Translations under genes and position numbers: made by a program
Assembly (NCBI GenBank): GCA_903910445.1
Contig: CAIVZR010000005.1
Coordinates: 1-64,000 of the forward strand
DNA from: an uncultured Bacteroidota bacterium
GTDB taxonomy: Bacteria > Bacteroidota > Bacteroidia > UKL13-3
DNA length: 64,000 nucleotides
Direction of reading: 5' to 3'
The notes under the pieces: generated by a model
The model's database searches: none
What the model was told of the DNA's origin: nothing
The model's input: the letters and a program-made list of their open reading frames with translations, nothing else
Shown here: piece after piece, positions 9,497 to 11,183 of the stretch
Numbering within the stretch: the stretch's first letter is position 1
Layout: each line of letters starts with the position of its first letter

Positions 9497-9532
9497 AAAA
9501 AAGCCATCCTTCCTAAGAAGAATGGCTTAAAT
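9497..9532 (-). terminator. Rho-independent terminator after the GIY-YIG gene
   Basis: On the minus strand the arms AAGCCATTCTT and AAGGATGGCTT form a hairpin followed by TTTTG. It lies just past the tRNA-Asp-like remnant and closes the GIY-YIG transcript. It also faces the tRNA-Ser terminator. Confidence 0.75.
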
Positions 9533-9535
9533 TTT

Positions 9536-9597
9536 GCGGACTGGACGGGACTCGAACCCTCTCGGCTCAGCCGAGACGTGACAAGTCGGCATTCAAA
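9536..9597 (-). pseudogene. tRNA-Asp 3'-part remnant (partial duplicate)
   Basis: 24 bases (9536-9559) are identical to the 3' end of the intact tRNA-Asp (9966-9989), covering discriminator, acceptor 3' strand and T-loop. Similarity resumes over the anticodon region (CGTGACA at 9578-9584 against 10001-10007, and CGGCATTC at 9587-9594 against 10011-10018). The stretch between carries a perfect 8-bp inverted repeat (TCTCGGCT-C-AGCCGAGA, 9560-9576) in place of the normal T-stem and variable loop. The D-arm and 5' acceptor strand are missing, so it cannot fold as a tRNA. It is one of two direct repeats flanking the GIY-YIG gene. Confidence 0.85.
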
Positions 9598-9851
9598 AGA
9601 ATATTTGTTGGCTGTTTAATTAGCCATTCTAAATACTTTCGATTTTGTCTCTTCAACATCTTTTCTCGCTTTAAGGCATCTCCTCTTGTTTCGAACTCCT
9701 CAAGATATACAAGGGCCCAAGGGCCTTTGTTAGAGGTATACGCGCTTTTGTTTTCATTATGTTCACATAATCTTTCCATTGGGCGTGAGCTTTCGCCTTT
9801 ATAATAAATATTTGATTTTTCCGAATATATAAGATAGACGTAATGTTTCAT
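9567..9851 (-). CDS. GIY-YIG nuclease superfamily protein
   Basis: A 94-residue single-domain protein. YVYLIYSEKSNIYYKGES carries the GIY-YIG core (here VYLIY ... IYYKG), R23 and R27 lie in SSRPMERLCEHN, and GPWALVYLEEFETRGDALKREK has the conserved E and K positions of UPF0213-type members. The last eight residues (NADLSRLG) are encoded inside the tRNA-Asp remnant, and the TGA stop lies in its hairpin. Proteins of this size are usually annotated as GIY-YIG family proteins of unknown role. Being alone between tRNA-derived direct repeats suggests a mobile or formerly mobile gene, which is inference. It is probably transcribed separately from tRNA-Asp, since a terminator lies between. Confidence 0.88.
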   Translation of the reverse strand: MKHYVYLIYSEKSNIYYKGESSRPMERLCEHNENKSAYTSNKGPWALVYLEEFETRGDALKREKMLKRQNRKYLEWLIKQPTNILLNADLSRLG

Positions 9852-9920
9852 TTCCTAGGTTTTTATTATTTTTCACTCTACATCTTTTAGGTATGCTACT
9901 GAATGAATTAATGATTTTCA

Positions 9921-9962
9921 AAAAAAAATCCACCAAGTAATTTGCACTTGATGGATTTTTTT
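9921..9962 (-). terminator. Rho-independent terminator after tRNA-Asp
   Basis: On the minus strand AAATCCATCAAGT and ACTTGGTGGATTT form a hairpin around a seven-base loop, followed by a long T run. It starts four bases beyond the tRNA-Asp 3' end. Confidence 0.85.
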
Positions 9963-9966
9963 GGAG

Positions 9967-10040
9967 CGGACTGGACGGGACTCGAACCCGCGACCTCCGC
10001 CGTGACAGGGCGGCATTCTAACCAGCTGAACTACCAATCC
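9967..10040 (-). tRNA. tRNA-Asp (anticodon GTC)
   Basis: The acceptor stem GGATTGG pairs with CCAGTCC (one G-T pair), with discriminator G at 9967. The D-arm contains AGTTCAGCTGGTTAGAAT, the anticodon loop CTGTCAC holds GTC (plus-strand positions 10004-10006), and the T-arm has the GTTCGAGTC loop. It is 74 bases long with no encoded CCA. Its 3' end is repeated at 9536-9559 on the far side of the GIY-YIG gene. Confidence 0.97.
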
Positions 10041-10235: not shown

Positions 10236-11183
10236 ATGTTCGATTTTGAAAAACCTATTGACGAGATACTAGAGCAGATTGAGAAAACTAAACAAATTGC
10301 AGAGAAAAGTAAAATAGATTTGAGCGCCGCAATAAATGAGTTGGAAGTTAAACTTACCCAAACTCGAAAAGATGTTTTCAGTAATCTGAATGCTTGGCAA
10401 AAAGTTCAAATCTCGCGTCATCCCGACCGCCCATATACCATCGATTATATCAACGGCATCTGCGATGGATTCGTCGAATTGCATGGCGACCGCACCGTTA
10501 AAGACGATAAAGCCATGATTGGCGGATTTGGTAGTATTGAAGGAAACTCCGTTATGATTATTGGCCAACAGAAAGGCCGCAATACAAAATCGCGTCAGTA
10601 TCGCAACTTCGGTATGGCCAACCCTGAAGGCTATCGTAAGGCATTGCGCTTAATGAAGCTTGCTGAGAAATTTAATAAGCCAGTGATTACCTTCATTGAT
10701 ACTCCCGGAGCCTCTCCTGGTTTGGAAGCTGAAGAACGTGGACAAGGGGAAGCCATTGCAAGAAATTTATTAGAGATGGCGGTACTTAAAGTGCCTATCG
10801 TTTGTGTTATCATCGGCGAAGGAGCCAGTGGGGGGGCACTCGGTATTGGTATTGGTGATAAAGTAGTAATGCTCGAATATACCTGGTACTCTGTTATCTC
10901 TCCCGAAAGCTGCTCCAGCATTTTGTGGAGAAGCTGGAACTTCAAAGAAACAGCTGCCGAAGCGCTGAAACTTTCCGCTACAGATATGTTAGGTAATGGC
11001 TTGATCGATGAAGTAATTAAAGAACCATTAGGTGGAGCACATAATAACCCAAGTGAAATGTTTGCTACACTTAAAGTGGAAATTTTACGAATGATCGCCG
11101 ACCTTAAGAAAATGTCGGTGGAAGAAATGGTGGCAAAACGAATTGATAAATTCGCAGGAATGGGTGTAGTTCAAGAAATTTAA
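10236..11183 (+). CDS. accA: Acetyl-CoA carboxylase, carboxyltransferase subunit alpha
   Basis: A full-length AccA of 315 residues. It transfers the carboxyl group from carboxybiotin to acetyl-CoA together with AccD, giving malonyl-CoA for fatty acid synthesis. The N-terminal coiled helix ([13 protein letters not shown]), [11 protein letters not shown], the GQQKGRNT segment, the acyl-CoA/oxyanion region [35 protein letters not shown] and [11 protein letters not shown] all match the family. It starts at an ATG after an AT-rich leader and stands alone between tRNA-Asp and wbqC; accD is not in the window. Confidence 0.97.

Follow-up and report, generated by a model that had tools for sequence, protein, structure and literature searches.

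Small GIY-YIG nuclease units beside intact tRNA genes in Bacteroidota

The only intact tRNA-Asp gene found in the genome of an uncultured Bacteroidota bacterium (GTDB lineage UKL13-3) is followed by a unit of ~430 bases, in which one GIY-YIG nuclease gene is joined by a damaged copy of the same tRNA that contains a hairpin. The same architecture turns out to define a large family of mobile units on many tRNA types across Bacteroidota. We think it probable that each is a minimal homing-like mobile unit parasitising one tRNA gene, in which a nuclease of 80–95 aa is combined with hairpin-bearing fragments of the same tRNA beside the intact tRNA. There is good support for the mobility and target specificity of the unit; that it cuts, and what its hairpin does, we infer. 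The family is apparently undescribed so far: no earlier description was found in the open-access literature, most subscription journals lying outside the scope of that search.

The tRNA-Asp locus and its nuclease

The window is the whole stretch of DNA that was analysed, i.e., positions 1 to 64,000 of contig CAIVZR010000005.1 (assembly GCA_903910445.1). Read along the minus strand, the locus runs from the intact tRNA-Asp through a terminator-like hairpin (T1), the GIY-YIG gene and the damaged tRNA copy to a second terminator-like hairpin, T2 (Table 1). The earlier note had described a tRNA-Asp, a GIY-YIG gene and a damaged copy of the tRNA 3′ end, and this arrangement is borne out by ARAGORN, by PF01541 and by 24 identical bases (9536–9559 and 9966–9989) that occur nowhere else in the window. 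The similarity beyond these 24 bases, also claimed, is real: the copy spans tRNA nt 20–75 and reaches a local score of 69, the maximum among 500 shuffles being 30. With 77% identity (E 3e-6), it is the sole other match to tRNA-Asp in the genome, and neither ARAGORN nor Rfam calls a tRNA in it. Between the two tRNA copies lies the GIY-YIG ORF alone, with no companion genes and, in the ORF list, no site-specific recombinase or integrase gene.

Table 1. Features of the tRNA-Asp locus in the window
Feature	Position	Strand	Evidence or remark
Intact tRNA-Asp(gtc)	9966-10040	(-)	ARAGORN; Rfam 66 bits; single full-length copy
T1, intrinsic-terminator-like hairpin 3′ of intact tRNA-Asp	9920-9962	(-)	RNA fold -20.1 kcal/mol
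GIY-YIG nuclease gene, 94 aa, single domain	9567-9851	(-)	PF01541 E 9e-17
Damaged tRNA-Asp copy (tRNA nt 20-75)	9536-9597	(-)	Alignment score and DNA search
Perfect hairpin TCTCGGCTGAGCCGAGA, 8-bp stem, 1-nt loop	9560-9576	(-)	Inside damaged copy, tRNA nt 40/52
ORF 3′ end (NADLSRLG*), tRNA- and hairpin-derived DNA	9567-9593	(-)	Sequence
T2, second, different terminator-like hairpin 3′ of damaged copy	9497-9529	(-)	RNA fold -17.5 kcal/mol
accA (acetyl-CoA carboxylase subunit alpha; name from sequence)	10236-11183	(+)	Flanking gene, site anchor

The hairpin TCTCGGCTGAGCCGAGA stands where the tRNA would have the 3′ side of its anticodon stem, its variable loop and the beginning of its T-stem. An 8-bp hairpin in the copy had been noticed before and taken to replace the T-stem; its presence stands, but it sits between nt 40 and 52, and the T-arm bases GGGTTCGAGTCCC are kept. 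GC-rich perfect palindromes with a stem of at least 7 number 35 in 430 kb of the genome, ~1 per 12 kb, and the occurrence of TCTCGGCTGAGCCGAGA within a 62-base fragment is therefore unlikely to be due to chance. A further idea, that copies of it are dispersed through its own genome, was rejected, as it has a single occurrence in the 430 kb examined.

The last residues of the protein do derive from tRNA-related DNA, as had been proposed, together with DNA of the hairpin, and this overlap at the 3′ end of the ORF is probably incidental. A functional tRNA-derived peptide tail was rejected: in locus L038 the stop codon lies ahead of the tail, and the tail is modelled at low confidence. The suggestion that a tail of the NADLSR type would mark the family failed, such tails not being general among relatives.

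The protein matches PF01541 with 61.6 bits against a cut-off of 22.6, and Y6, Y17, G19, R27, H31, E63 and K67 are invariant among 18 relatives, a conservation of Tyr, Arg and Glu that suggests an active nuclease. AlphaFold2 predicts one confident GIY-YIG domain (mean pLDDT 91), with the lowest confidence in the tRNA-encoded tail, and neither Pfam nor AlphaFold2 gives a second DNA-binding domain, as in I-TevI, in the 94-aa protein. The closest solved relatives by sequence profile are UPF0213 (1ZG2, 1YWL; E 2e-17) and Slx1 (E 8e-8), which are likewise the fold neighbours of the AlphaFold2 model; the I-TevI catalytic domain ranks far lower, at E 0.65. Slx1, a structure-specific repair nuclease, has an additional domain and works with a partner, Slx4; the UPF0213 structures have no assigned function. 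We know of no tRNA-linked mobility for either. The unit works like a free-standing homing endonuclease gene, but we do not class it as a member of that group, because a separate DNA-binding domain is absent.

In many genomes of the host family, tRNA-Asp adjoins accA. The site beside accA is filled in the window's genome (G000) and in its sister genome G003, of the same genus, and when the unit is aligned between the two, as the earlier note had proposed, 3 differences appear over 488 bases from the tRNA start. The comparison of empty with filled sites, also proposed there, succeeded within the same genus, where tRNA-Asp of G001, G002 and G004 is equally far from accA but has no GIY-YIG gene beside it. 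In G003, the terminator (T1) and leader of the intact tRNA recur after the damaged copy, where the contig then ends; this points to at least one further tandem unit, i.e., at least two in all. At the same site, the window's genome has one unit, and another terminator occupies the place corresponding to the G003 repeat. These differences in presence and in unit number between close relatives indicate that the unit is gained or lost and that its copy number changes.

Two side observations concern the same genus. In G001, two contigs (L297 on C59 and L298 on C42) share an overlap of ~330 bases and one of them stops 3 bases past tRNA-Asp, so that the assembly forks exactly at the tRNA 3′ end, which may reflect strains with and without the unit. 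A second such unit is found in the window's genome itself (L003; G000 contig C25:56784-57020, minus strand), where it adjoins tRNA-Pro(tgg) and has hairpins in tRNA fragments on both sides, at 14/18 upstream and 24/48 downstream; this match contains one TGA inside the searched stretch.

Units on many tRNA types

Loci were gathered by a single-protein search, a contig scan (one genome per species) and a profile search, which yielded 160 distinct loci or arrays in Bacteroidota with some redundancy (e.g., L023 and L097 are one array). A same-strand tRNA lies within 400 bp upstream at 104 of the 160 loci, and a fragment of the same tRNA lies downstream of the nuclease gene at 82 of these 104. Counted by individual gene, 105 of 203 are preceded within 200 bp by a tRNA on their own strand, and none by one on the opposite strand. 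Within 320 bases around the nuclease gene end, GC-rich palindromes with a stem of at least 7 were found at 57/104 loci, as against 9/280 control windows. About 20 anticodon types are represented, with Met, Asp, Asn, Val and Ala the commonest, and the fragments often lack the 5′ half of the tRNA. The nuclease profile has matches in 102/149 genomes of the class and 125/198 of the phylum; in a second, phylum-wide sample, 22/25 loci adjoin a tRNA. Outside this setting, the single locus of a Firmicutes relative (L046) has no tRNA nearby, and protein searches of phages and plasmids returned distant relatives only.

Insertion at the tRNA 3′ end, as inferred in the earlier note, is not the sole arrangement. 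At 14 additional, mirror-image loci, the nuclease gene lies just before the intact tRNA, most of them with a tRNA 5′ fragment, usually hairpin-bearing, ahead of the nuclease gene and some with a duplicated promoter region; at many loci, hairpin-bearing tRNA fragments lie on both sides. Tandem arrays were found at 30 loci, with up to 10 units. For instance, a single tRNA-Asn in G025 is followed by eight tandem 410-base units, each with a nuclease gene, and is preceded on its upstream side by 11 tandem 80-base units. Separately, contigs often end a few hundred bases from GIY-YIG genes (e.g., G045:C25, G045:C123, G003:C86, G232:C97), as expected if tandem units break short-read assemblies, in which case the true arrays are probably larger.

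The breakpoints at which the hairpin interrupts the tRNA recur per isotype across genomes: Asp 38/51, Met 38/49, Asn 25/36, Val 28/46 and Ala 35/42, the window's position (40/52) being equivalent to 38/51 of the other Asp loci. Thirteen loci have hairpin-bearing fragments on both sides of the intact tRNA, at a matching tRNA position, and the two hairpins within one such locus differ by a mean edit distance of 1.5, against 4.2 between loci. The outer stem hardly varies (TCCCG/CGGGA, TCTCG/CGAGA or TCCG/CGGA). The inner pairs covary, pair 6 being A-T or C-G in the Asn group and G-C, C-G or T-A in the Asp group, a compensation that is expected within this sample because the hairpins were chosen for being perfect; the independent evidence for the hairpin is its fixed position and its excess over control windows. 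Hairpins lie in the D, anticodon or T arms. In a second class, best seen in G025, 5′ fragments have the hairpin in the D-loop and 3′ fragments in the T-loop; in this class (L097), it lies away from the presumed break near nt 31. At L146 and L184, which have tRNA-Arg fragments with a break at 22/23, CCTGCCTGCCGGCAGGCAGG or a near copy of it lies cleanly between nt 22 and 23, with no tRNA bases lost.

One such hairpin sequence is also dispersed. The 16-base palindrome CCCGATAGCTATCGGG reaches 60 copies per genome, with unrelated flanks, and its carriers make up 44/149 class genomes (e.g., G141, G127, G150 and G122; loci L225–L267). Dispersed copies occur in 40/102 genomes that have the nuclease and in 4/47 that lack it, a comparison uncorrected for phylogeny; all genomes with at least two copies have tRNA-type GIY-YIG genes, and the reversed control gave 0.

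Terminators were compared at 52 loci whose two tRNA copies both keep an intact 3′ end. The sequence past the tRNA end is identical for at least 20 bases at 19 of them, the terminator having been duplicated with the tRNA end, and splits within 8 bases at 23, often into two complete, different terminators. The latter is the case in the window, where T2 departs from T1 immediately past the tRNA 3′ end and neither is assignable as the native one. Early divergence is the pattern that exchange within the tRNA sequence would give, and identical terminators the pattern that tandem growth would give.

The nuclease tree (156 proteins, 81 columns) was built with a quick method that leaves many forks unresolved. 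On this tree, tRNA isotype requires 41 changes, whereas 1000 shuffles gave 85 on average and never fewer than 79. Host family requires 89 changes (shuffled mean 92, minimum 85), i.e., no signal, in a test of low power because few families are represented repeatedly within an isotype. Sites in the main Asp clade are all Asp, from at least seven host families, and those in the largest Met clade all Met, with 2 of its 18 members lacking a called tRNA. A tree that follows isotype fits target specificity with movement between hosts, or else frequent loss. A sister clade of 13 nucleases, including L002 of the window's genome, is never beside a tRNA and serves as an internal negative control.

The surroundings of that sister clade merit a separate remark. 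The GIY-YIG gene of L002 (L080:166-630; G000 contig C4:301-531) is flanked by the inverted repeat TTGTCATCTCGACGAAGGAGAGATC, ~440 bases apart, and its sisters L032, L034 and L035 have other flanking repeats, e.g., TTGTCACCCTGAGCTTGTCGAAGGG. Nucleases of the L002 clade might move short dispersed repeats.

Proposed mechanism and competing explanations

A minimal mobile unit tied to a tRNA gene, as first inferred from the window alone, is supported by the empty sites, the tandem units, the recurrence of the architecture and the nuclease tree. We propose that it moves by the following steps. (i) The nuclease would break an element-free tRNA gene within the tRNA body, at a position that is specific to its clade. 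(ii) The break would be repaired from element-bearing DNA, with tRNA sequence acting as the homology arms and unrelated flanks being irrelevant; repair through tRNA homology is suggested because the surroundings are unrelated and the tRNA ends carry two different terminators. (iii) A functional tRNA would be left, or rebuilt whole, with the displaced part staying as a fragment by the nuclease gene, which is the anatomy observed. (iv) Repeated rounds of breakage and repair would generate the tandem arrays seen on one or both sides of the tRNA. (v) The hairpin would be a maintained part of the unit that probably removes the cut site and/or is bound by the Slx1/UPF0213-like nuclease.

Immunity is the main difficulty of this homing model. 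Filled genomes have an intact tRNA-Asp 100% identical to the empty-site tRNA of G004, and a nuclease that simply recognised the tRNA would therefore cut its own host. Immunity by recoding of the intact tRNA-Asp was sought in the comparison of filled with empty sites and not found, and the same identity sits uneasily with a hairpin that would stop recutting, as the earlier note had suggested. Arrays may result from imperfect immunity. Other points that speak against the homing model are a protein of one domain that resembles UPF0213 and Slx1 more than I-TevI, and the L097-class hairpins, which are remote from the presumed break.

A broader proposal, which we put forward tentatively and would not yet count as the likelier outcome, is that the units form a phylum-wide class of ~350–450 bp. 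Its very small, autonomous-looking members would combine a single-domain Slx1/UPF0213-like nuclease, whose isotype specificity is inherited, with the tRNA as a universal arm of homology and a hairpin that co-evolves as another functional part. Such a class would be neither classical homing nor REP/RAYT transposition, and would explain the two-sided arrays of hairpin-bearing pseudo-tRNAs around essential tRNA genes.

The strongest rival to the homing-like unit, although we regard it as unlikely, starts from the hairpin. REP/RAYT systems combine a small nuclease-like gene with short dispersed hairpins, some of them around the gene; RAYTs are Y1 (HUH-type) transposases and are not tied to tRNA isotypes. 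By analogy, the hairpin rather than the tRNA would be what is mobile or recognised, an Slx1-like nuclease would act on hairpins and on single-stranded arms of tRNA genes, placing hairpins into tRNA copies, and tRNA genes would be favoured landing sites since they fold into hairpins. The conserved outer stem with covarying inner pairs, the location of hairpins in D, anticodon or T arms and the rank of Slx1 as a fold neighbour all suit this account, as does the dispersal of CCCGATAGCTATCGGG among unrelated flanks, commoner in genomes with the nuclease. Against it, the window's hairpin is single in the part of its genome examined, tRNA fragments and not bare hairpins flank the gene, and a nuclease tree that tracks isotype is not predicted by a hairpin-only system. 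A small nuclease gene linked to hairpins is a likeness to REP/RAYT, and dispersal, a feature of such systems, is present in some genomes and absent for the window hairpin, whereas the units differ in having GIY-YIG only, without a Y1 transposase, and in being tied to isotypes.

We give distinctly less credence to a locus kept for its use to the host, in which the nuclease and the tRNA-like fragments would be selected together, e.g., as a decoy or in tRNA-linked defence or regulation, with arrays providing dosage. Intact catalytic residues, maintained hairpins and large arrays could all be read this way. However, occurrence is patchy inside one genus and spread over many different tRNA types, the fragments often lack a 5′ half, the window's copy is not even recognised as a tRNA, and no companion genes are present there.

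Still more improbable is the remnant of a tRNA-integrating island, i.e., a larger element that a recombinase inserted at the tRNA 3′ end and of which the nuclease gene and an att copy alone are left. The identical 24-base tRNA 3′ end flanks the unit as att sites flank islands, but such a bare unit is found again at over 100 loci, including tRNA 5′ ends and both sides of a tRNA, the window's copy covers more than a 3′ end, and no integrase lies between the tRNA copies. Least credible of all is passive association, a tandem tRNA duplication that carries a neutral nuclease gene along, which would account for the terminators duplicated at 19/52 loci but is contradicted by the perfect strand bias (105 against 0), the isotype-specific nuclease clades, the fixed hairpin positions and the sister clade of 13 nucleases that never stands beside a tRNA.

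Known systems and significance

With free-standing homing endonuclease genes, the homing-like units share presence or absence at one site and one target type across hosts. A GIY-YIG member of that group, SegB, is a longer protein with its own DNA-binding part. It is encoded in T-even phages by a gene that adjoins a tRNA gene, and in the accessible part of the source it is reported to cut within tRNA-containing DNA and to cause the segment of tRNA and nuclease gene to be amplified in tandem (PMC13096335). While SegB belongs to phages, the Bacteroidota units lie in bacterial chromosomes, consist of one domain of 80–95 aa and occupy many isotypes. Hairpin-bearing tRNA fragments are a feature of the Bacteroidota units, with none seen for SegB in the same part of that source (PMC13096335).

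The closest likeness in layout comes from fungal mitochondria, where mobile ORFs (Allomyces atp6; Glomus atp6, atp9, cox2 and nad3) are described, in the portion of the article available, as bringing a replacement gene end together with an endonuclease and displacing the native end downstream; the endonuclease of the Glomus atp9 element is a GIY-YIG protein (PMC3630166). As far as that portion goes, the two types have in common an intact gene, an endonuclease ORF and a displaced 3′-end copy, an arrangement found in the window and at 82/104 loci. The fungal mitochondrial type uses protein genes and is not bacterial, while the Bacteroidota units use tRNA genes. The hairpin in the displaced copy and the two-sided arrays belong to the Bacteroidota units; none were seen for the fungal mitochondrial type in the text available (PMC3630166).

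The Bacteroidota units are very small, spread over many isotypes across a phylum, and leave the adjacent tRNA intact. Selfish DNA usually avoids essential, conserved genes, or enters them only as introns and islands. In practical terms, the units may account for short GIY-YIG annotations with odd C-termini in Bacteroidota assemblies, as well as for hairpin-bearing pseudo-tRNAs and for contig breaks at tRNA genes. If the homing-like reading is true, they would allow homing in bacterial chromosomes to be tested cleanly, and likewise how an 80–95 aa nuclease specifies a tRNA gene and how arrays arise from breaks in tRNA genes.
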